Assembly: GCF_010500615.1 (NCBI RefSeq)
Contig: NZ_JAAGNX010000002.1
Span: forward strand, 2,490-66,489
Direction of reading: 5' to 3'
Source of the DNA: Oceanipulchritudo coccoides
GTDB lineage: Bacteria > Verrucomicrobiota > Verrucomicrobiia > Opitutales > Oceanipulchritudinaceae
DNA: 64,000 bases
Part shown: piece by piece, positions 38,988 through 64,000 of the stretch
Layout: each line of letters opens with the position of its first letter
Position numbering within the stretch: the first letter of the stretch is position 1
Made by a program: the position numbers and the translations under genes
The notes under the pieces: model-generated
What the model saw: the letters and a program-made list of their open reading frames with translations, nothing else
The model's database searches: none
Told to the model about the DNA's origin: nothing

Positions 38988-39062
38988 TGGTACTCCCATA
39001 GGGATTCGAACCCCAATTTCTGCCTCCGGAGGGCAGCGTGTTATCCATTACACTATGGGAGC
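38988..39062 (-). tRNA. tRNA-Arg (anticodon CCG)
   Basis: The minus-strand sequence folds into a standard cloverleaf. The acceptor stem is GCTCCCA/TGGGAGT, with a G-T wobble at the first pair. The anticodon arm is CTGCC-CTCCGGA-GGCAG with loop anticodon CCG (reads CGG). The T arm has GGTTCGAATC. The discriminator A at 38991 is followed by an encoded CCA (38988-38990). Length is 72 nt without CCA. Confidence 0.93.
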
Positions 39063-39171
39063 AGGATACATTCCTTTAGAGGAAGGAGAGAAGTTGTGCG
39101 GGGGTGATTGATGGGTCAATGTTTTTTGTGGGCCGGAGTTCCGCCTTCAGGCGGCCTTGAAACGGCGAACT

Positions 39172-39187
39172 GTCCCGTTTTTGGGAC
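39172..39187 (+). promoter_or_regulatory. Enhancer-like palindrome GTCCC-N6-GGGAC
   Basis: GTCCC-GTTTTT-GGGAC matches the two palindromes that precede the sigma-54 promoter of the efflux operon at 55893-55931. It lies about 120 bases upstream of a -24/-12 element, the usual distance for an NtrC-type activator site. Confidence 0.65.
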
Positions 39188-39306
39188 GCAAGGTGTCCCT
39201 GAACCGCACAAATCGTGGCGAGAAACGCCAAGGCTGGAGAAACAGATCAATCCCTAATAATTTTAACTCGCTGTTATTCAGTGTCTTATGAATTATAAAA
39301 GTAAAT

Positions 39307-39322
39307 TGGCACGCTGGAAGCA
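39307..39322 (+). promoter_or_regulatory. Sigma-54-like promoter of the two micropeptide genes
   Basis: TGGCAC-G-CTGGAAGC-A: GG at 39308-39309 and GC at 39320-39321 are separated by ten bases, the required spacing. The -24 part is a perfect TTGGCACG. The -12 part has AAGC instead of TTGC. It ends 35 bases before the first micropeptide ATG. Confidence 0.65.
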
Positions 39323-39356
39323 ATAGGGATAGGTGAAATTTAAGGAAAGCACAGCC

Positions 39357-39434
39357 ATGACACTTATCATCTTCACATCCGCCTTTTTACTGACCTTCGG
39401 AATCGTCCAGATCAAGGAAGCGATTGATTCCTGA
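39357..39434 (+). CDS. 25-aa single-helix membrane peptide
   Basis: This peptide begins MTLIIFTSAFLLTFGIVQ and ends with the charged tail KEAIDS. A good Shine-Dalgarno (AAGGAAAG) lies about ten bases upstream. It is the first gene after the sigma-54-like promoter. No homologue known to me; it is too short for ordinary gene calling. The membrane helix and short charged tail resemble stress-induced small membrane proteins in style. Confidence 0.55.
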   Translation: MTLIIFTSAFLLTFGIVQIKEAIDS

Positions 39435-39475
39435 ACCGGACCTGGCGTGGTCCACCAAACTTTGGAGAAGCAGCA

Positions 39476-39568
39476 ATGATTACGATCCTTTTGAGCACCA
39501 TAATTTTGAGCACCATCCTTCTAGTGGCCTTCGGGTTGGATGAAATCCACTTCGGGTGGCAAGGGTAA
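39476..39568 (+). CDS. 30-aa single-helix membrane peptide
   Basis: This peptide reads MITILLSTIILSTILLVAFG, followed by a DEIHFGWQG tail. The Shine-Dalgarno TGGAG is placed correctly before the ATG. It is similar in build to the peptide 41 bases upstream (membrane helix, then a short charged end), so the two may be diverged copies. A strong terminator follows 33 bases after the stop, closing a two-gene unit. Confidence 0.55.
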   Translation: MITILLSTIILSTILLVAFGLDEIHFGWQG

Positions 39569-39600
39569 CTTTTTCTAGAAGCACCTAAAAAGAACAACTG

Positions 39601-39632
39601 AGCGGGATCCCATCAAGGGGTCCCGCTTTTTA
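39601..39632 (+). terminator. Rho-independent terminator after the micropeptide genes
   Basis: AGCGGGATCCC / GGGGTCCCGCT forms a long stem with a five-base loop followed by TTTTT. It may also serve the convergent lpd gene. Confidence 0.88.
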
Positions 39633-53146: not shown

Positions 53147-54532
53147 ATGTCTCTCGAAAAACCGCCATCCGTTCTCGTCGCCGACGACCAGCGCGACATT
53201 CTCCATGCCTTGCGAGTCCTTCTCCGTGGGGAAGGATGCAAGGTGAAGACGGTCAACACCCCCGATGAAGCGCTGGATGCGCTGGCCCATAACCCTTTTG
53301 ATGTCGCCCTGATCGATCTCAACTACGCACGCGACACCACCAGTGGCGACGAGGGACTCGACCTGATCGGAGAGATCCAGAAGCTTGATCCGGACCTGCC
53401 GGTGGTCGTCATGACCGCCTGGGCGACCATCGACCTTGCCGTGGAATGCATGCGGCGTGGCGCGGCCGATTTCATGCAGAAGCCATGGGAGAACGCGCGT
53501 GTCATCGCGACCATTTTCAACCAGGCTGAATTGTATCGTGCGAAGCACCGGGCAACCGTCCTTGCGGATGAGAACCGGGCCCTGAAGGAGAGCAAGTCTC
53601 GCGACTTCCTCGCAAAATCCGACGTCATGAAGCCGGTCCTTGAGATTATGCACAAGGTGGCACCGTCTGATGCCAACATTCTCATCACCGGGGAAAACGG
53701 CACTGGCAAAGGCGTGGCGGCCCGCTACATCCACAGCCTATCGGCACGCGCGACCGAACCTTTTGTCTCGATCAACATGGGCGGCCTGGCAACCGGAGTG
53801 GCCGAGAGTGAGCTCTTCGGCCATGTCAAGGGGGCCTTCACGGACGCCAAATCCGATCGGGCCGGACGCTTTGAAATGGCCGATGGCGGAACACTGTTCA
53901 TGGATGAAATCGGAAACCTCCCGATGGAACAGCAACAAAAGCTCCTGCGCGTGCTGGAAACCGGGGAATTTGAGCGCGTTGGCTCATCCCGTACCCTCAA
54001 GGTCAATGTCCGCATCGTCAGTGCGACCAATTCCGACCTGCAAAAGTCCGTCAAGGAGGGCCTGTTCCGTGAGGATTTGCTTTACCGTCTCAACACCATC
54101 CCGGTTCACCTGCCGCCGCTGCGCGAGCGCGAAGGGGATATTCCCCTGCTGGCAAATGCATTCCTGAAACAGCACTTGAAGCGCTATAACAAGGCTATCG
54201 ACGGCTTCCTCGATCAAGCGCTTGAAACACTGAAGCGTTACGGCTGGCCCGGTAATGTCCGCGAGCTGGACCACACGATCGAGCGAGCCGTTCTTCTCGC
54301 CGGGGGTGACAAGATCAAGGTTTCCGACCTCGGACTGGTCTCCACTGCTGCCACGAGCGACGACTCCGCTATGAATACGCCCAGCCTCGATGACATGAGC
54401 CTCGAGGACGTGGAGAAATACCTTATTCAACGCACCCTCAAGCGCAATGGCGGCAATGCCACCAAGACGGCCGAGGATCTGGGGCTCTCCCGCTCCGCTT
54501 TCTATCGCCGGCTTCAGCGCTTCGGGCTCTAA
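53147..54532 (+). CDS. NtrC-family sigma-54 response regulator
   Basis: This 461-aa protein has a receiver domain with D13-D14, phospho-acceptor D57, T90 and K112. The AAA+ domain has Walker A GENGTGKG (182-189), GAFTDA (229-234) and Walker B GGTLFMDEIG. A C-terminal Fis-like helix-turn-helix (NGGNATKTAEDLGLSRSAFYRRL) completes it. The sigma-54 contact loop is usually GAFTGA; the GAFTDA form is seen in a subgroup linked to ABC efflux operons. It should bind GTCCC-N6-GGGAC sites (inference). The kinase gene follows after 15 bases. Confidence 0.93.
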   Translation: MSLEKPPSVLVADDQRDILHALRVLLRGEGCKVKTVNTPDEALDALAHNPFDVALIDLNYARDTTSGDEGLDLIGEIQKLDPDLPVVVMTAWATIDLAVECMRRGAADFMQKPWENARVIATIFNQAELYRAKHRATVLADENRALKESKSRDFLAKSDVMKPVLEIMHKVAPSDANILITGENGTGKGVAARYIHSLSARATEPFVSINMGGLATGVAESELFGHVKGAFTDAKSDRAGRFEMADGGTLFMDEIGNLPMEQQQKLLRVLETGEFERVGSSRTLKVNVRIVSATNSDLQKSVKEGLFREDLLYRLNTIPVHLPPLREREGDIPLLANAFLKQHLKRYNKAIDGFLDQALETLKRYGWPGNVRELDHTIERAVLLAGGDKIKVSDLGLVSTAATSDDSAMNTPSLDDMSLEDVEKYLIQRTLKRNGGNATKTAEDLGLSRSAFYRRLQRFGL

Positions 54533-54547: not shown

Positions 54548-55885
54548 ATGGGTTCCAAAGGAAAACGGCGATTAAGCCACCAGCACCGCATCCAGCTGCT
54601 GGCCTTCCTTTGTGGCGCCCCGGGACTCCTCGCGGCGCTCATTCTTCTCATCGTGGGAGACTACGGCCTCAAGGTCTACCTGACGGTTTTCATCCTTGTC
54701 GGCTCGGCCTGGTTTTACTTCAGCATCCGGATTCAATCCAACATCATCCTTCCCCTGCAGACCGCCTCCAACATGCTTTCGGCCCTGCGCGAGGGCGACT
54801 TCTCCCTGAAGGCGAATTACCTCAATGACGAAGATGCGCTGGGCCAGTTGATGATGGAGATCAACATGCTCACTGATGTCCTCTCAGAACACCGGATGGA
54901 TGCCATGGAAGCACATGCGCTCATGGACAAGGTCATTCAGGAAATAGACGCCGCCGTCATCACTTTTGATCCGGAGTGCTGTGTAAAACTGGCCAATGAG
55001 GCGGCTCGCAGACTCCTCGGAATCGGCAAGGAGCAGATCACCCATCGCTATGCCGCCGAGCTCAACCTCGACAAGGCCTTGGAGAGCCCTCCAAACGCCA
55101 TCATTCCGCATCCCAACCCGGACCGCTCGGGCCGTTTTACTGTGCGCAGGGGAACTTATCGCGTCGCTGGCCAACCACACGAGCTCCTCATTCTCATCGA
55201 TGTGAGCCGGAACCTGCGCGAGGAGGAGCTCCTTGCCTGGAAACGCCTTATCCGCGTCCTCGGCCATGAGCTGAACAATTCCATGGCCCCGATCCGGTCG
55301 CTTTCCGAAAGCCTCCAGCGAGTCGCAGCAATCGACGACCCGGAGCCTGAGGATCGCGAGGATCTTGTTGAGGGGCTGGAAATTATCCGGCAACGAGCAG
55401 ACGGACTGAGCCGGTTTATCAACGAATATGCCCGGCTGGCGAAACTGCCGCATCCCAAACTGAAGCCAGTCCCCCTGAAGCCACTCGTGAGACGAATTGC
55501 TTCCCTGTATGAAGATCCCGAGGTGAAAATAGACCCGGCAAACAGCCCCGATGTCACGCTTCAAGCTGATCCTGACCAGCTTGAACAGGCCCTCCTGAAT
55601 CTGGTCAAAAACGGCGTTGAGGCAGCCACCCAGACCGATGGCTGGGTCAAGATCTGCTGGCGCGAGCAAGGGGATGCCCTCGTCCTGCATGTCGAGGATT
55701 CCGGGCCGGGGATTGCCAATCCGGACAACCTCTTTATTCCCTTTTTCTCCACCAAGGAGGGCGGATCAGGAATTGGCCTCACCCTCTCGAGGCAAATTAT
55801 TGAGGCGCACGAAGGCTCACTCGCTCTAGCCAATCGAGAGGATGCAATCGGCTGTTGCGCCGAAATCATCCTGCCAAGGCGCTGA
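54548..55885 (+). CDS. Sensor histidine kinase (NtrB/NtrY-like)
   Basis: This 445-aa protein has two N-terminal membrane helices (about residues 19-37 and 42-60) with almost no periplasmic loop, then a HAMP-like region and a PAS domain (VIQEIDAAVITFDPECCVKLANEAA). The phospho-acceptor His240 is in LGHELNNSMAPIRSL, and the ATPase boxes are NLVKNGVEAA, DSGPGIANP and GGSGIGLTLS. The short loop suggests it senses a membrane or cytoplasmic signal. It forms a two-gene operon with the regulator upstream of the efflux operon. Confidence 0.92.
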   Translation: MGSKGKRRLSHQHRIQLLAFLCGAPGLLAALILLIVGDYGLKVYLTVFILVGSAWFYFSIRIQSNIILPLQTASNMLSALREGDFSLKANYLNDEDALGQLMMEINMLTDVLSEHRMDAMEAHALMDKVIQEIDAAVITFDPECCVKLANEAARRLLGIGKEQITHRYAAELNLDKALESPPNAIIPHPNPDRSGRFTVRRGTYRVAGQPHELLILIDVSRNLREEELLAWKRLIRVLGHELNNSMAPIRSLSESLQRVAAIDDPEPEDREDLVEGLEIIRQRADGLSRFINEYARLAKLPHPKLKPVPLKPLVRRIASLYEDPEVKIDPANSPDVTLQADPDQLEQALLNLVKNGVEAATQTDGWVKICWREQGDALVLHVEDSGPGIANPDNLFIPFFSTKEGGSGIGLTLSRQIIEAHEGSLALANREDAIGCCAEIILPRR

Positions 55886-55892
55886 GCCAGCA

Positions 55893-55931
55893 GTCCCGCA
55901 AATGGGACGACAGTCGTCCCATTTGCGGGAC
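55893..55931 (+). promoter_or_regulatory. Twin enhancer-like palindromes (GTCCC-N6-GGGAC x2)
   Basis: Site 1 is GTCCC-GCAAAT-GGGAC (55893-55908) and site 2 is GTCCC-ATTTGC-GGGAC (55916-55931). Together they form one perfect 39-base inverted repeat centred between them. They lie about 90-125 bases upstream of the -24 element, the proper distance for an NtrC-type activator. No T-run follows, which argues against a terminator. Confidence 0.75.
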
Positions 55932-56017
55932 ACTTATCCGTGGCGGGAAGTCCAATATAATTATATCAAATTCTAAGTAATTGCCATTCAACAGCTTAAG
56001 GCAATTATAAGCAAAGG

Positions 56018-56033
56018 TGGCACCACCTTTGCT
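56018..56033 (+). promoter_or_regulatory. Sigma-54 (-24/-12) promoter of the efflux operon
   Basis: TGGCAC-N5-TTGCT: GG at 56019-56020 and GC at 56031-56032 are ten bases apart. Both boxes match the consensus. The predicted start near 56043 leaves a leader of about 34 bases before the adaptor ATG. Confidence 0.85.
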
Positions 56034-56076: not shown

Positions 56077-57330
56077 ATGGATATTATCAGAGATGACTTA
56101 AAAAAGAAAAAGAAGAAGCGCCAGATCATCATTGGAGCCAGTTCGCTGGCCCTTCTGCTGGTTGTCGGTTTCTTCCTTTTTTCCATGGACCCGGCGGCAC
56201 CGTCCGTCGAGCGTTCGAGTGTATGGATTGGTAAAGTTGCCCGCGGCCCCATGGAGGTAAACGTGCGCGGGATCGGCACCCTTGTCCCGGAAGACCTGCG
56301 CTGGATAACAGCCCAGACCAACGGCAGCGTGGAGCATATCTACATTCTGCCCGGGGCGGCAGTGGAACCGGAAACGGTTATTCTGCTATTGGGCAATCCC
56401 GAGTTGGAACAGATTTTCCGCAACGCCGAGCTTCAGCTTGCCTCAGCCCAGGCCGAGCTCGCGAATCAGCGCGTCCGCGAGGAGGACAGCCTTCTCGAAA
56501 TGGAATACCAACTGGCCCAGCTGGAGGCGAGTTACGAGAATGCCAAACTGGATGTACGGGTGAACGAGGAACTCTTCGCGGAGGGCCTTGTCGCCGAACG
56601 GGACCTTCTCCGGTCACAGGTATCCAAGGAACAACTGGAGCGGCAGACTGATATTCTGGGCCGCCGGCTTGCCACGCGGCGCCAGCAAATGGAGCAAAAT
56701 CTTGCCCCGGCACTGGCCAGCGTCTCGCAGGAGGAAGAACGGGTTACTTTACTGCGCCAGCAAGTGGCCGACCTGTCTGTAAAGGCTGGAATCCGCGGAG
56801 TCCTGCAACGGCTTCCCCTCGAGGAAGGACAGCAGGTGTCAACCGGTACCCAGCTGGCCCAAGTAGCTGACCCGTCACGACTCAAGGCCGTCATTCGTAT
56901 TCCGGAAACACAGGCCAAGGACATTCAAATCGGGCAAACCGCCTCCATCGACACCCGCAACGGAGTCGTCAAAGGGGAAGTGGCCCGCGTCAATCCGACT
57001 GTTGTCGGCGGCACCGTTGATGTCGATGTGCGCATCACGGGTGAGCTTCCGCGCGGAGCCCGGGCTGACCTGACCGTCGAGGGCAGTGTCCAACTGGCCA
57101 ACCTGAGCGACATTCTTTACATCGGCCGGCCCTCCTTTGCCCGTGAAAACGGCACCGTGGGCGTCTTTAAACTGACCAACGGCGGCAATGTCGCGGAGCG
57201 GACCACCGTGACATTCGGGAAGAGCTCGGTCAGTGAAATCCAAGTCATGAGCGGCCTCATCGAAGGGGACGAAATCATTTTATCAGACACCAGCCAGTAC
57301 GACGATAATGACCGACTGCGCCTCAACTAG
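56077..57330 (+). CDS. HlyD/RND-type membrane-fusion adaptor of an ABC exporter
   Basis: This 417-aa protein has a cytoplasmic basic segment (KKKKKKRQ), one membrane helix (IGASSLALLLVVGFFLFSM) and a lipoyl half-motif. A long alpha-helical hairpin of coiled-coil type runs about residues 115-255 (QLASAQAELANQRVREEDSLLEMEYQLAQLEASYENAKLDV and following). The second lipoyl and beta-barrel domains follow (ADLSVKAGIRGVLQRLPLEEGQQVSTGTQLAQVADPSRLKAVIRI). It bridges inner-membrane permeases to an outer-membrane factor. It is the first gene after the sigma-54 promoter. No TolC-like gene is in the window. Confidence 0.9.
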   Translation: MDIIRDDLKKKKKKRQIIIGASSLALLLVVGFFLFSMDPAAPSVERSSVWIGKVARGPMEVNVRGIGTLVPEDLRWITAQTNGSVEHIYILPGAAVEPETVILLLGNPELEQIFRNAELQLASAQAELANQRVREEDSLLEMEYQLAQLEASYENAKLDVRVNEELFAEGLVAERDLLRSQVSKEQLERQTDILGRRLATRRQQMEQNLAPALASVSQEEERVTLLRQQVADLSVKAGIRGVLQRLPLEEGQQVSTGTQLAQVADPSRLKAVIRIPETQAKDIQIGQTASIDTRNGVVKGEVARVNPTVVGGTVDVDVRITGELPRGARADLTVEGSVQLANLSDILYIGRPSFARENGTVGVFKLTNGGNVAERTTVTFGKSSVSEIQVMSGLIEGDEIILSDTSQYDDNDRLRLN

Positions 57331-57357: not shown

Positions 57358-58080
57358 ATGAGCGAAAATAACGAACTAATCACCCTTGACGGAATAACCA
57401 AGGTCTTCCTCACCGACGATATTGAAACACATGCCCTTTCCGGCATCCACCTGACAATCAATAAAGGTGAGTTTATTTCCATTTCCGGTCCTTCCGGATG
57501 TGGCAAGTCAACCCTGCTCTCGATCCTCGGCCTGCTTGAGGCGCCTTCAGGAGGTGATTATATTCTCAACAAGAATAACGTATCCAACCTTTCACTCGAG
57601 GAACGGGCGCGCATCCGGAACCGGGAAATTGGATTTATCTTCCAGAGCTTCAACCTGATCGGTGACCTTTCCGTCATTGAAAATGTCGAGCTTCCCCTTG
57701 CCTACCGGGGCTTGAAGCCCGCAGAACGGCGGAAGATGGCAACAGCAGCCCTTGAAAAGGTCGAAATGATCCATCGTCAAAAGCACCTTCCAAGCCAGCT
57801 TTCAGGCGGTCAGCAACAGCGTGTTGCGGTGGCCCGCGCGCTTGCCGGCAATCCCAAGATCCTGCTCGCTGACGAACCGACCGGTAACCTTGATTCCAAG
57901 AACGGCTCTGTCGTCATGGAAATGCTGTCCGACCTCAACAAGGAAGGCACGACCATCTGCATGGTGACCCACGATGACCGCTATGCCCACGTGGCAAACC
58001 GGATTGTTCATCTCTTCGACGGCAAGATCGTGGATGAGGAACGTGATGTTGAGCATGTGCCTCTTCGCGCTGAAGCCTGA
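57358..58080 (+). CDS. ABC transporter ATP-binding protein (MacB/LolD type)
   Basis: This 240-aa protein has Walker A GPSGCGKST, a Q-loop in IGFIFQSFNLIGDLSV, the signature LSGGQQQRVAVARAL, Walker B ILLADEPTGNLD and an H-loop in VTHDDRYA. The FNLIGDLSVIENVELPL and PTGNLDSKNG words are those of the MacB/LolD/FtsE class, which powers mechanotransmission transporters. It follows the adaptor gene by 27 bases. Confidence 0.95.
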   Translation: MSENNELITLDGITKVFLTDDIETHALSGIHLTINKGEFISISGPSGCGKSTLLSILGLLEAPSGGDYILNKNNVSNLSLEERARIRNREIGFIFQSFNLIGDLSVIENVELPLAYRGLKPAERRKMATAALEKVEMIHRQKHLPSQLSGGQQQRVAVARALAGNPKILLADEPTGNLDSKNGSVVMEMLSDLNKEGTTICMVTHDDRYAHVANRIVHLFDGKIVDEERDVEHVPLRAEA

Positions 58081-58098: not shown

Positions 58099-60534
58099 AT
58101 GAATGCTTTTGTCTCAGATTTCCTGTATGCATTCCGGATTCTCTTCAAGCGACCCGGACTGACACTGCTGGCCATCGTGGCACTCTCGGTAAGCCTGGGA
58201 ATGACCACGACGACCTTCAGTGTGCTCAATGGGCTCCTGTTCAAGCCGCTTCCGTTTGAGAATCCCGAGGAACTGCATCATATCTACCTGAAGGGGGAAA
58301 GCTATGAGGCAAAAATGATGCCGCTTCCCTTTGATGAGCTTGGCAGTCTGGACGGGGTTGAGTGCTTTGACGAGATAATGGCTTATTATTCCGGGACCAT
58401 TAATATTAGTGGTGAAGGGACACCCGAACGCTACACTGGAGCTTTTGTGTCACCGAATTTCCTGAGCTTGCTCGGGCATGAACCCGAGATGGGCCGGTCT
58501 TTCTCCGATGAAGCAATCCTACCCGATGGACCAAGGGAAATTCTCATCAGTCACGAAATGTGGGAGAGCCGCTTTCGCAGCGATCCGGAAATCCTCAAAA
58601 AGACTATCCGGGCAAACGGTTCCGAGCACGCGGTTGTCGGTGTCCTTCCGGAGGGATTCCACTTCCCGAGTAACGCCCATGCCTGGGTTCCACTTAATCG
58701 CACCCTCTTTCCCGGGGATGAAAACGAGTCGATGCACGTCATTGCCGTTGGCCGGCTCAATGGGGACTCTACCGCCCGACAAGCGCGTGATGAACTCGAG
58801 GCACTGTACGCTTCATGGGATGGCTCACAGATCGAACAGAAGGATCAGCTTCAATTGACCTGCCAACCCTTCGGGCGGTTGGAAATGAACAGCGCCTCGC
58901 AATCGATTCTCGTGGTGACCATCAGTTCGGTTATTTTCATTCTTCTGGTCTCCTGTGCCAACGTGGCCAACCTTCTGGTCGGGAGAGCCCTTAGCCGTGG
59001 TCGTGAAATGGCCATCCGTGCGGCAATCGGGGCAACCCGTCGCCGGATCATACAGCAACTCCTTACGGAAAGCCTTGTGCTTTCCCTGATCGGGGCGGTC
59101 GGCGGGCTTTTGTTCGCGGCTTGGTCGGTCGATGTATCGACAGAGTCAGCACTTTTTGAATTTCCTTACTGGATGAACTTCGAGCTCGATTGGCGTGTCT
59201 TCGGGTTTGTCGTTCTCGTCATGCTGGGGACCGCCATGATTTCGGGGTTTATTCCCGCGTGGCAGGCATCCAAGACGGATCTCAATGAGATGCTCAAGGA
59301 TACGTCCCACACCTCCACCAGTTTTCGTCTTGGTAAACTGACGCGCCTTCTCGCTGTGGTGCAAATCGCCTTTTCCTGCGCCTTGCTCTTCGGGGCAGGT
59401 CTGGTTGCCCGCAACACCCTTGACATGTCGCGGATCGACCCGCAATTCCAGGCCGAGGACATTCTGACCATGCGGATGGGCCTCTTCCCGAGGGATTATC
59501 CGGAAGAAGCCGACCGGGACGAATTTTATGCGGAACTGACAAAGGTTGTTGAGGAAGTGCCCGGTGTCTCCGGTTGCGCGGTCACCAGCTGGATCGGGAT
59601 GTTCGGAAATTTCGAGGTACCGTTCATCATGGCCGGTCTCGAAGATGAACAACCGAAGGTAAACTACGCCTTCATCGAATCTGTTTCTCCGGGTTACTTC
59701 AACACGATGCAGATGCAGACCGCAACTGGCAGGACTTTCCTTGATAGCGATGATACAGGCTCAGCAAATGTTGTCGTCGTGAACCAGGAATTTGTCCGGC
59801 GTTTCATGGGCGGCCAAAATCCCGTTGGCAAAAGCCTCAGCCTTGTCACCAGCAAACTGGAAGGCTCCTCGGATTGGCAGAACGACAACTTCCGGGTTGT
59901 CGGGGTTGTCTCGGATGTGCGGGTTTCCAACTTCACAAAGCCCGCCAAGACAGAAGCCATCATTTATGCACCCTACCGGCAAACGGCTTCCTCCTTCATG
60001 TCCCTCATTGTCAACGCCGATGAGGCCGGTAATCCGGAACTGCAAAACTCAATCCAGCAAGCTATTCTCACACTTGATCCCCATCTGCCGGTCTACTTTT
60101 CGCAGACCATGGCTTCCTATATTGATGAGCAGATCTATCCATACAAATTAATGGCCAACTACTTTCTCTCGATCGGTTTGATGGCCCTTTTCCTCGCGGC
60201 GATCGGCGTCTACGGCATGCTGGCCTTCAATGTGAGTCGCCGCAGAAGGGAAATCGGCATCCGTATGGCACTCGGTGCCAACACGCGGAACATCATATCA
60301 AAAGTCCTCCAGCAAGGGCTTTACCAGATGGTGGTCGGAATCATCGTGGGGACTGGCTTTGCCTATTTGATCGGCCAGTTTATCCGGAACTTCCTTTTTG
60401 GAGTCAATCCGCTGGATCCATCCGTCTACATCGGGGTTCTCTTCACGCTGATCGGCGTGGCAACCCTTGCCTTCTTCCTCCCGGCGCGGAAGGCCTCCCG
60501 TCTCTCACCAATGGAAGCGCTCCGCTACGAATAA
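58099..60534 (+). CDS. MacB/ADOP-like ABC permease (paralogue 1)
   Basis: This 811-aa protein has an N-terminal FRILFKRPGLTLLAIVALSVSLGM with TTTFSVLNGLLFKPLPFENPEEL. A MacB-type periplasmic domain and an FtsX domain (ILLVSCANVANLLVGRALSRGREMAIRAAIGATRRRIIQQL) follow. A second periplasmic domain and a second FtsX domain (RRRREIGIRMALGANTRNI) end in PARKASRLSPMEALRYE. This double layout and length are those of ADOP permeases, which are normally orphan; here an ATPase is adjacent. It starts 18 bases after the ATPase gene. Confidence 0.92.
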   Translation: MNAFVSDFLYAFRILFKRPGLTLLAIVALSVSLGMTTTTFSVLNGLLFKPLPFENPEELHHIYLKGESYEAKMMPLPFDELGSLDGVECFDEIMAYYSGTINISGEGTPERYTGAFVSPNFLSLLGHEPEMGRSFSDEAILPDGPREILISHEMWESRFRSDPEILKKTIRANGSEHAVVGVLPEGFHFPSNAHAWVPLNRTLFPGDENESMHVIAVGRLNGDSTARQARDELEALYASWDGSQIEQKDQLQLTCQPFGRLEMNSASQSILVVTISSVIFILLVSCANVANLLVGRALSRGREMAIRAAIGATRRRIIQQLLTESLVLSLIGAVGGLLFAAWSVDVSTESALFEFPYWMNFELDWRVFGFVVLVMLGTAMISGFIPAWQASKTDLNEMLKDTSHTSTSFRLGKLTRLLAVVQIAFSCALLFGAGLVARNTLDMSRIDPQFQAEDILTMRMGLFPRDYPEEADRDEFYAELTKVVEEVPGVSGCAVTSWIGMFGNFEVPFIMAGLEDEQPKVNYAFIESVSPGYFNTMQMQTATGRTFLDSDDTGSANVVVVNQEFVRRFMGGQNPVGKSLSLVTSKLEGSSDWQNDNFRVVGVVSDVRVSNFTKPAKTEAIIYAPYRQTASSFMSLIVNADEAGNPELQNSIQQAILTLDPHLPVYFSQTMASYIDEQIYPYKLMANYFLSIGLMALFLAAIGVYGMLAFNVSRRRREIGIRMALGANTRNIISKVLQQGLYQMVVGIIVGTGFAYLIGQFIRNFLFGVNPLDPSVYIGVLFTLIGVATLAFFLPARKASRLSPMEALRYE

Positions 60535-60568: not shown

Positions 60569-63043
60569 ATGGACTATCTAATCCGCAGCTTTAAATTTGG
60601 CCTTCGCATTCTTGTAAAGAGCCCTGCTTTCACCCTCATTGCCGTTGTTGCGCTTGCCCTTGGTATCGGTTCAGTCACGACAATGTTCAGCGTGATCAAC
60701 GGGGCGATCATCCGCGGGCTTCCATTTGAGGAACAAGAGGAATTAATGTTCGTGAAGCGCTGGGACCAGGAACGCCAACCATGGAACACCGGTATCCCGA
60801 TACTGGACATTCAGGACATCCAGCGTGAACAGAAGAGCTTTGAATCATTGGCGGCCTGGTTTGGCGGCACCGTCAATGTCAGTTTGGACAATAATCCGAT
60901 CCGTTTTACGGGATCCCGCATTTCCCATAATTGGCTCGAAATCCTTGGTGTGGAGCCATTGATCGGTCGCGGGTTCACCGCGGAAGAGGATAAGCCCGGA
61001 GCGGCCCCGGTCATACTCCTCAGCTATGCCGTGTGGCAAACTCACTACAGTGGAGATCCTTCCATTGTCGGTAAGAGCGCCAGCGTGAATGGTGCCCTTG
61101 GCACAATCATCGGGGTTATGCCGAAGAAATTCCAATTTCCCGGAAGGGACGAGGTCTGGATTGCCCTCAATCCGCAGATTGACTGGGCCGATGTCGACCG
61201 TGGTGACCTTTCCATGAGTGTCATGGGCCGCTTGAAGGACGGCGTCTCGCGTGAGCAGGCCACGGCGGAACTCACTTCCTTTATCAACCGCTTTGCCAAG
61301 GAATACCCGGAAACTCACGGAGAATTTGTCGCGGCCTCGGTCGATCCTGTGGCGACGGAGCTGCTGGGCGAGCAACCCATTCGCATGATGTGGATCATGC
61401 TCGCCATGGGAGGCTTTGTCCTGCTGATTGCCTGCGCAAACGTTGCCAACCTGCTTCTTGCCCGTTCCACGCTACGCAGTAAGGAACTGGCGATCCGAAG
61501 CTCCCTCGGGGCAACCCGGATCTCTATCATTGGCCAACTGCTGGTGGAAAGTATTCTCCTTTCCGCTCTTGGGGCGTTCGCCGGGATGCTTCTTGCCCTC
61601 TGGGCCACCAATACACTCCAGTCATATGGGGAGGTGATGCAGCTACCTTTCTGGATCACCTTTAACCTGGACTGGCGCGTGCTGACGATTGTCACGATTG
61701 TCACACTTCTATCCGGCCTCATCTCGGGAATTGTTCCGGCACTGAAGGCTTCGAGGGTGAGCGTGACGGACATCCTGAAGGACGACACCCGTACCGGGTC
61801 CTCCCTTCGCATGGGACTTTTCAGCAAGGGGCTGGTGGTCGTGCAGGTGGCGATTTCAAGCGTCCTCCTCATCCTCACTGTACTCATGGTGAGAAGTGTG
61901 CAGAATATCAGTAACACCGACCTGCACTTTGATACGGAAAAGGTCTTTACCGCACGAATGGGACTTTTCGACAGTGCATATCCTGACCCGGAAGACCGGT
62001 ATCAGTTTTTCACGACACTCAAACGCAACCTTGAGGCCCGCCCGGAAATCCAGCATACGGCCCTTTACGGACGCTACCGCTGGACCCTGATCGGCGTCGA
62101 CTGGACCCGCATCAAGGCAGATGGCGCCGAGTACGAACAACCGGAAGATATGCCCGTTGTGACCACGGAATATATCAGTCCGGAATATTTTGAAACGCTT
62201 GGAGTCGAATTGATCGAAGGGCGGGAATTCACGGAGTTGGACACGCCCGACAACATGCCGGTTGCGGTGATCAATCAGGCCCTCGCGGAACACCTTTTCC
62301 CGGGCGAAAACCCGATTGGCAAACGTATCACCCGCGAACCATGGCCGGGTGAACGGGCAAACATGACCCCCGAGGAGATTGATTCCATCCCATGGCTGAC
62401 CGTGGTCGGGGTTGCCCCGAACATGGCCGCTCAGGGCGTTGGTAACACAACAGGTGCGGAGGGTCGCCACTTCTGGCGGCCAATGGCTCCGGAATACACC
62501 GCGACGTTCATGACCATCGCCGCACGGGGCCCCGGTAATCCGATGCTGCTGCGTGAGATTGTCCGGAACGAAGTTATTAAGTTGGACCCAACCCTTCCGA
62601 TTTACGCTGATGCAACACCGGCAAAAATCGTCGAGGAGGATACGGTCACCCAACGCATCATTGCGAACATCTTCAAGATTTTCGGTCTGGTCGCCGTCTT
62701 CCTCGCCTCGGTCGGTATTTACGGGATCATGTCGTTCTCCGTGAACCAACGGACGATGGAATTCGGAATCCGTTCAGCACTTGGAGCGACCGGAAACAGC
62801 CTGCTTGTCCTCGTCATGCGCTCCGGCCTGATTCAGTTCACGGTCGGATTGGTTCTTGGACTCACGGGAGCCTTCTTCTTCTCGAAGTTGATGCAGAACT
62901 TCCTTTTCGGAGTTTCACCGCAGGATCCGGTCAATTACCTTCTGGTCGCGGTTGTCTTCACTGTTGTTGCTGTTTCTGCCTGCTTGATGCCAGCACGGCG
63001 GGCGGCACGCGTTGACCCGGGACAAGCCCTGCGCTACGAATAG
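60569..63043 (+). CDS. MacB/ADOP-like ABC permease (paralogue 2)
   Basis: This 824-aa protein has the same architecture as its upstream neighbour: FGLRILVKSPAFTLIAVVALALGIGS, TMFSVINGAIIRGLPFEEQEEL, LLIACANVANLLLARSTLRSKELAIRSSLGATR, a second FtsX half with MEFGIRSALGATGNSL, and the end PARRAARVDPGQALRYE. The two are clearly homologous but well diverged in the periplasmic parts. That suggests different substrates or a heteromeric permease. It lies 34 bases after paralogue 1. Confidence 0.92.
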   Translation: MDYLIRSFKFGLRILVKSPAFTLIAVVALALGIGSVTTMFSVINGAIIRGLPFEEQEELMFVKRWDQERQPWNTGIPILDIQDIQREQKSFESLAAWFGGTVNVSLDNNPIRFTGSRISHNWLEILGVEPLIGRGFTAEEDKPGAAPVILLSYAVWQTHYSGDPSIVGKSASVNGALGTIIGVMPKKFQFPGRDEVWIALNPQIDWADVDRGDLSMSVMGRLKDGVSREQATAELTSFINRFAKEYPETHGEFVAASVDPVATELLGEQPIRMMWIMLAMGGFVLLIACANVANLLLARSTLRSKELAIRSSLGATRISIIGQLLVESILLSALGAFAGMLLALWATNTLQSYGEVMQLPFWITFNLDWRVLTIVTIVTLLSGLISGIVPALKASRVSVTDILKDDTRTGSSLRMGLFSKGLVVVQVAISSVLLILTVLMVRSVQNISNTDLHFDTEKVFTARMGLFDSAYPDPEDRYQFFTTLKRNLEARPEIQHTALYGRYRWTLIGVDWTRIKADGAEYEQPEDMPVVTTEYISPEYFETLGVELIEGREFTELDTPDNMPVAVINQALAEHLFPGENPIGKRITREPWPGERANMTPEEIDSIPWLTVVGVAPNMAAQGVGNTTGAEGRHFWRPMAPEYTATFMTIAARGPGNPMLLREIVRNEVIKLDPTLPIYADATPAKIVEEDTVTQRIIANIFKIFGLVAVFLASVGIYGIMSFSVNQRTMEFGIRSALGATGNSLLVLVMRSGLIQFTVGLVLGLTGAFFFSKLMQNFLFGVSPQDPVNYLLVAVVFTVVAVSACLMPARRAARVDPGQALRYE

Positions 63044-63062: not shown

Positions 63063-64000
63063 ATGGAAGCAATTCTCAGGGATATCAAATTCGGATTCCG
63101 CCAGCTTGTGCGGAACCCCGGATTCACGATAGTTTCCGCGGTGGCCCTGGGCCTCGGGATTGCTTCCGTGACGACCCAGCTCTCCGTGACCAACGGAATC
63201 CTGCTCGAGGGACTACCGTTTCCTGAACCGGAAAAAATTGCCCATGTTGAGCGGATCAATGTCGAGCGTGAAAACTTCAACGCGGAACCGACAATTCTCG
63301 AGTTTATCGAATGGAGGGACAACCAGAAGGCCTTCGAGGGACTCGCCGGATTTTATATCGGCACGGCCAATTTCACCTTTGGTAACCTTGTTGAGCGATA
63401 CAACGGCGCTTTCATCTCTGCCAATACCTTTGAAATGCTCAGGGCAAAGGCTGCCCTTGGGAGAACCTTGGTTCCTTCGGATGACTTCCCCGGAGCACCG
63501 CACGTCACGGTGCTCTCGCACAAGGTCTGGAAAAACGACCTCGGCGAGGATCCGGATATCATCGGAAAACCAGCTGTCCTGAATGGAAGGCCAACAACGA
63601 TTGTCGGGGTCATGCCTGAAGGATTTGGGTTCCCGATTAATGAGGACCTCTGGGTTCCCCTCTTCAAGCAGCAGGACCCGTCAGCTCTTTCATGGGGAGA
63701 CCCGATGATGACACTTGAAGTGTTCGGTCGCCTTCTTCCCGGTGTGAACTTTGATCAGGCAAATGCCTCAATGAGTGTGCTGGCCGGCATGCTCGAAGAG
63801 AAGTACCCCGACACGAATGAGGGCTTCCGGGCAATGGAGGTAAAGCCGTTCATTGACGAATTCCTCGGTGACCAGACCGTGACCATGACCGGCGTCATGC
63901 TGCTGATCACAGTCCTCATCCTTGTCATCGCCTGTGCCAATGTGGCAAATCTTCTTCTGGCGCGATCGATGCGCAGGCAACGGGAAATCGCCATCCGTTC
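63063..64000 (+). CDS. MacB/ADOP-like ABC permease (paralogue 3, cut by window end)
   Basis: The ATG at 63063, 19 bases after paralogue 2, opens a frame that runs off the right edge (312 codons seen). It begins MEAILRDIKFGFRQLVRNP and has GLGIASVTTQLSVTNGILLEGLPF, a periplasmic domain (GAFISANTFEMLRAKAALGRTLV) and the first FtsX segment IACANVANLLLARSMRRQREIAIRS. The order matches paralogues 1 and 2. More genes of the operon may follow outside the window. Confidence 0.9.
   Translation, partial: MEAILRDIKFGFRQLVRNPGFTIVSAVALGLGIASVTTQLSVTNGILLEGLPFPEPEKIAHVERINVERENFNAEPTILEFIEWRDNQKAFEGLAGFYIGTANFTFGNLVERYNGAFISANTFEMLRAKAALGRTLVPSDDFPGAPHVTVLSHKVWKNDLGEDPDIIGKPAVLNGRPTTIVGVMPEGFGFPINEDLWVPLFKQQDPSALSWGDPMMTLEVFGRLLPGVNFDQANASMSVLAGMLEEKYPDTNEGFRAMEVKPFIDEFLGDQTVTMTGVMLLITVLILVIACANVANLLLARSMRRQREIAIR

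Follow-up and report, generated by a model that had tools for sequence, protein, structure and literature searches.

Two tandem open reading frames (ORFs), A and B, for peptides of 25 and 30 amino acids lie in the 64,000-nucleotide stretch of Oceanipulchritudo coccoides DNA analyzed here (the window), and they raise the question of whether such short frames are genes and, if so, which cellular system their products serve. Our analysis points to a previously unrecognized micropeptide family that would join a defined regulon with one activator site, one neighboring regulator, and three promoters in the whole genome. The features on which this reading is built are collected in Table 1.

TABLE 1 Features of the micropeptide cassette and the exporter module in the window
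Feature	Position	Strand	Description or basis
Upstream activator site 1, TGTCCC-N6-GGGACG	39171..39188	+	Exact pattern match
Activator site 2, degenerate (TGTCCCTGAACCGCACAA)	39194..39211	+	23 bp past site 1
Sigma-54 promoter, TGGCACGCTGGAAGCA	39307..39322	+	Predicted start ~39332
Shine-Dalgarno AAGGA, peptide A	39342..39346	+	Sequence
Micropeptide A	39357..39434	+	ATG, 25 aa, MTLIIFTSAFLLTFGIVQIKEAIDS; single hydrophobic helix (orthologues, paralogues, selection)
Shine-Dalgarno TTGGAG, peptide B	39462..39467	+	Sequence
Micropeptide B	39476..39568	+	ATG, 30 aa, MITILLSTIILSTILLVAFGLDEIHFGWQG; paralogue of A
Intrinsic terminator of cassette 1	~39600..39632	+	12-pair stem, z = -3.82
NtrC-family response regulator	53147..54532	+	Receiver, AAA+, Fis-type HTH (Pfam PF00072, PF00158, PF02954)
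Histidine kinase	54548..55885	+	Pfam; two membrane helices, no extracytoplasmic domain
Exporter-operon activator sites (two)	55892..55909 and 55915..55932	+	Pattern
Sigma-54 promoter of exporter operon, TGGCACCACCTTTGCT	56018..56033	+	Full consensus match
HlyD/MacA-type membrane fusion protein	56077..57330	+	Pfam; orthologue starts
ABC ATPase of exporter	57358..58080	+	Pfam PF00005
MacB/FtsX-type permease 1	58099..60534	+	Pfam PF12704, PF02687
MacB/FtsX-type permease 2	60569..63043	+	Pfam PF12704, PF02687
MacB/FtsX-type permease 3	63063..64000, runs off window	+	Pfam PF12704, E 4e-18

Evidence for two conserved micropeptide genes

Both peptides consist of one hydrophobic stretch followed by a short polar tail, which is the similar build described in the original prediction, and the good ribosome sites that it reported are present before both frames. 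The B frame carries an in-frame 15-bp tandem duplication (ATCCTTTTGAGCACC/ATAATTTTGAGCACC), with a helix that is 5 residues longer, and the AlphaFold2 model of B is a single helix spanning residues 2 to 27 (pLDDT 91). Few positions of the peptide alignment are strongly conserved; conservation peaks in the C-terminal half, at LLxFGxxELK, and the rest of the hydrophobic core is variable, as are the tails among paralogues. We infer, less certainly, that A and B insert as single membrane helices and work as a pair.

Codon conservation was the check proposed along with the original prediction, and it held: the in-frame pN/pS ratio is 0.38 over five roughly independent pairs and 0.43 over all pairs, versus 0.84 to 0.85 and 1.44 to 1.47 in the shifted frames. 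On these comparative sequence grounds, A and B are shown to be real conserved genes under in-frame purifying selection, and both are almost certainly translated.

A profile of 12 peptides, searched against 373 genomes of the order, returned 12 matches at E < 1e-8 (4e-10 for B), all of them in three genomes of one genus, where they occupy seven cassettes with every match inside a cassette. The O. coccoides genome holds a second pair (G000:C2:148993 and 149120), and the tandem, which was to be sought in relatives, was found beside the dehydrogenase gene in two further genomes of the genus as well. In one of these relatives, G002, six peptides are encoded in four cassettes arranged in tandem. The array has the arginine tRNA on one side and the dehydrogenase gene on the other (L070, G002:C160, 575 to 2425); cassettes 1 and 2 encode an A-type peptide only, cassettes 3 and 4 encode A and B, and the latter two are 84% identical, which marks a recent duplication. 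In all two-peptide cassettes, A and B remain separate subfamilies.

No convincing relative outside the genus was detected by profile among the 373 order-level genomes; weak hits (E 0.009 to 0.05) were 12- to 16-residue pieces, nearly all within long ORFs, and were rejected. The peptide was not seen in the fourth genome of the genus, G001, an absence that is uninformative because that assembly is 84% complete and yielded no high-identity match to the dehydrogenase gene. The family has no match in Pfam, NCBIfam, PHROGs, or PDB sequences, homology to MgrB included.

Organization of the cassette

Cassette 1, which contains A and B, has as neighbors an arginine tRNA (38988 to 39062) and, on the opposite strand, a dihydrolipoamide dehydrogenase-like gene; in G010, a genome of the same family that lacks the peptides, the site is empty, and the same tRNA and dehydrogenase gene are ~76 bp apart. 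The cassettes share a general plan, in which a GTCCC-N6-GGGAC activator site is followed 135 to 146 bp on by a sigma-54 promoter, a leader of ~25 nt with an exposed Shine-Dalgarno sequence (six of the seven cassettes), one or two peptide genes, and, in most cases, a visible terminator. The activator site is kept upstream of every cassette and of the exporter promoter, and the 23-bp spacing between the two sites is the same at cassette 1 and at the exporter promoter. In site, layout, and class of spacing, the cassette promoters match that of the exporter. Neither the activator region (39171 to 39211) nor the second cassette copy elsewhere in the genome was part of the original prediction. A plasmid origin was considered and rejected, with no match found.

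The sigma-54-like promoter and the strong terminator foreseen on either side of the frames were both recovered. The promoter element of cassette 1 lies ~136 bp downstream of the activator palindrome; its -24/-12 bases are preserved among relatives and the DNA around them has diverged, and the -24 GG and -12 GC are retained in all cassettes. The genome contains rpoN. The bare TGGCAC-N7-GC pattern shows no genome-wide enrichment (111 matches, compared with 159 for the control), and the promoter therefore carries information only in combination with the activator site and with conservation.

A probable regulon shared with a MacB-type exporter

Directly after the genes for the regulator and the kinase comes the exporter operon, with genes for a membrane fusion protein, an ABC ATPase, and three or more MacB/FtsX-type permeases. 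Orthologue comparison and the AlphaFold2 model (pLDDT ~80 there) join the two kinase helices by a loop of ~4 residues. The fusion protein likely starts at ATG 56077 rather than at GTG 56017, since its orthologues begin at the equivalent Met; the GTG start, that of the longest ORF, overlaps the sigma-54 promoter.

The 3.5-Mb genome was searched for exact matches to the combined signature GTCCC-N6-GGGAC, N98-128, TGGCAC, with the reversed pattern as a control. There are three matches, at cassette 1, at cassette 2, and at the exporter promoter (56018), and none to the reversed pattern in the whole genome; cassettes 1 and 2 are ~16.7 kb and ~90 kb from the exporter, distances that count against the role proposed below. 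Of 55 relatives, 13 have an orthologue of the regulator (E below 1e-100), and 6 of these 13 carry the signature, versus 0 of the 42 that have no orthologue (Fisher p ~6e-5, calculated by hand, with genomes treated as independent and phylogeny ignored). A looser pattern gains two more orthologue-bearing genomes together with two scattered matches in nonbearers, which look like chance. With the signature occurring exactly three times in the genome and tracking the regulator orthologues, the shared regulon is well supported, and the cassettes and the MacB-type exporter very probably belong to it together, as the original prediction had suggested.

The site-to-promoter distances cluster at ~103, 115, 126, 136, and 146 bp, neighboring clusters differing by roughly one helical turn. 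For 17 promoters, a Rayleigh test gave p ~3e-4 for a 10.5-bp period and lower values for 11 to 11.5 bp, a periodicity that is suggestive given that the period was not preset and the promoters are not all independent. We infer that the regulator binds the GTCCC-N6-GGGAC sites, and this NtrC-family protein is the probable activator of the cassette and exporter promoters.

Proposed role of A and B

Since they stand behind the same kind of activator-dependent promoter as the exporter, the peptides probably tune the exporter or its controlling sensor. The locus would be one sigma-54 cassette in a regulon that probably responds to envelope stress. In this regulon, the intramembrane-type histidine kinase would phosphorylate the NtrC-family regulator; on its GTCCC-N6-GGGAC sites, the regulator would switch on the MacB-type tripartite exporter and also the small cassettes at two places in the genome, each with one or two single-helix micropeptides. 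As cotranscribed paralogous helices, A and B would contact membrane helices in the kinase or in the MacB-type permeases. They would adjust signaling or transport in the manner of MgrB or AcrZ, as a feedback or adaptor element for a kinase that itself lacks a sensor domain. Two-helix, sensor-less kinases rely on membrane partners, often transporters (PMC8534201), and small membrane proteins of the MgrB type bind kinase helices directly (PMC10576120); it is on this dependence and this precedent that binding to the kinase or the permeases is proposed. Kinase, permease, and lipid are all candidate partners. Stress induction and a physical action on the exporter or the kinase, both put forward in the original prediction, would fit this scheme, and the mechanism as a whole seems to us evenly poised between right and wrong. 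The exporter module is found far beyond the one genus that has the peptides, which excludes them as a universal subunit, and the exporter and kinase function elsewhere without them.

Several known systems resemble parts of this arrangement. MgrB (47 aa), SafA, and UgtS are small membrane proteins that act on the PhoQ kinase (PMC2789325, PMC8404706, PMC10576120). Like A and B, MgrB is small and single-helix, and it is induced by the two-component system that it controls, one linked to the antimicrobial-peptide response; however, MgrB is PhoP driven, longer, and usually single copy, and A and B lack sequence similarity to any named family. PhoQ has a periplasmic sensor domain, whereas the kinase here has none, and contact between this kinase and A or B is a proposal. 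An analogue on the exporter side is AcrZ, a single-helix small membrane protein that is bound to the AcrB efflux pump and coregulated with its exporter; AcrB is an RND pump, however, no sequence relation of A and B to AcrZ was found, and their contact with the exporter is a proposal.

The Gram-positive Bce-type modules (BceAB-BceRS) share the two-helix kinase without an extracytoplasmic domain (PMC10314905, PMC3023708, PMC8534201) and the placement of the kinase gene beside an FtsX-family ABC transporter, with the transporter operon as the probable target of the kinase's regulator. They differ in having an OmpR-type regulator, not an NtrC-type regulator with sigma-54, and a single large BceB-type permease in place of a fusion protein with several MacB-type permeases (tripartite, MacAB type); micropeptide cassettes are a further difference of the present regulon. 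According to the accessible text of a 2025 study, sigma-54 promoters are enriched before ABC antimicrobial-peptide permeases (COG0577/COG1136) in Opitutia, Bacteroidia, and Gammaproteobacteria (PMC12316311). That text does not name the activator, the GTCCC-N6-GGGAC site, or small peptides, and the term "small protein" is absent from it; for the statistical link as reported there, our analysis supplies a candidate activator and binding motif. Judged by the open-access literature, small membrane proteins of stress regulons are a known kind; what looks new is the sigma-54 cassette form, the pairing of A with B, and the connection to this module.

Alternative explanations

The peptides might instead protect or modify the membrane without a dedicated protein partner, becoming abundant under envelope stress and altering bilayer properties. 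The amplified cassettes, four in one genome, the scarcity of strongly conserved positions in an otherwise variable hydrophobic core, and the predicted coinduction with an exporter family of the antimicrobial-peptide type are all consistent with such a role. However, conservation is strongest in the C-terminal half, a pattern suggestive of a specific contact more than of bulk hydrophobicity, and A and B stay distinct in every two-peptide cassette; we consider a partner-free role rather improbable, and the accompanying idea that cassette multiplication simply means a higher dose does not strike us as likely either. Small size, a single hydrophobic helix, and tandem repetition also recall type I toxin loci, and A and B could in principle be self-toxic peptides of the TisB kind that lower the membrane potential in stress. 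The short leader with its mostly exposed ribosome site differs, however, from that of type I toxins, whose leaders are long and structured, and the peptides carry little positive charge; no covarying RNA structure was found in the transcript, and a simple sigma-70 scan detected no antisense promoter over the ORFs. Toxicity is thus an unlikely function.

Coregulation with a peptide-type exporter, paralogous copies, and variable tails would also suit a cargo role, with the MacB-type transporter exporting the peptides as signals or bacteriocin-like products. Against this, the cassettes contain no leader, cleavage site, or modification gene, the entire peptide is one membrane helix, and conservation peaks at the end of that helix and not in the tail, so that a cargo role is very unlikely. 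That the short transcript has its own promoter and terminator might even suggest a regulatory RNA with incidental ORFs. This is highly improbable and already disfavored by the sequence comparisons: the frames are under purifying selection, starts and Shine-Dalgarno sites are conserved, the 15-bp duplication stays in frame, the covariation term is essentially nil, and there is no Rfam match. The preferred reading remains the tuning of the kinase or exporter by A and B.

Small membrane proteins in other lineages

A search of named genomes with the regulator alignment found the regulator, kinase, fusion protein, ABC ATPase, and MacB-type permease neighborhood in Opitutaceae, Spartobacteria/Chthoniobacterales, Acidobacteria (Acidobacteriota), Gammaproteobacteria (Lysobacter, Frateuria, and Pseudoalteromonas), and Bacteroidota. 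The activator site is recognizable in Verrucomicrobiota, at one Holophagaceae locus, and at one Pseudomonadales locus, and weakly at one Paraglaciecola locus. A phylum-wide search for the signature gave 19 matches versus 5 in controls, and the genes downstream encode fusion proteins, an ABC ATPase, MacB-type permeases, and TolC-like outer-membrane proteins. At one locus (L235, G510:C2:6221), an M13-type peptidase gene lies behind the signature, which suggests peptide degradation within the regulon.

Small membrane proteins recur in association with these exporters run by a sensor-less kinase. They are encoded between the signature and the ABC gene (99 to 123 aa; G046, G061), before the fusion protein (86 to 138 aa; L157 to L159, L234, L236, L245), or before the regulator (81 or 101 aa; G029, L171), and in G134 two membrane proteins of 72 and 70 aa, each with two helices and neither with a Pfam or NCBIfam match, are encoded in tandem behind the signature (L150, G134:C1:2664430). 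It is possible, though doubtful, that GTCCC/sigma-54 exporter regulons generally and convergently require a small membrane helix; equally tentative is the suggestion that each lineage has recruited unrelated small membrane proteins to couple the sensor-less kinase to the MacB-type exporter, as pairs of 25 to 30 aa here and as single or tandem proteins of 70 to 138 aa elsewhere. The small membrane proteins from those other lineages show no detectable homology to the micropeptides (hhalign probability 0.3%), so the functional parallel may be coincidence. If true, convergence would define a Gram-negative counterpart of Bce/Lia signaling with interchangeable microsubunits.

Other observations were made at these loci. 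G134 has a further, near-identical copy of the 70-aa membrane protein. At L241 and L242, proteins of 108 to 110 aa with a signal-peptide-like start and a Pro-rich tail are encoded between the signature and the ABC ATPase gene. In G002, the activator site and sigma-54-like signature also precede a candidate gene for a cationic 41-aa product, with AAAGGAG as its ribosome site (L149/L076, G002:C1:20201-20490); it has only a weak match in G000 (E 0.045). In G050, the regulator orthologue lies ~2.5 kb from rpoN (G050:C1:1907234-1911533).
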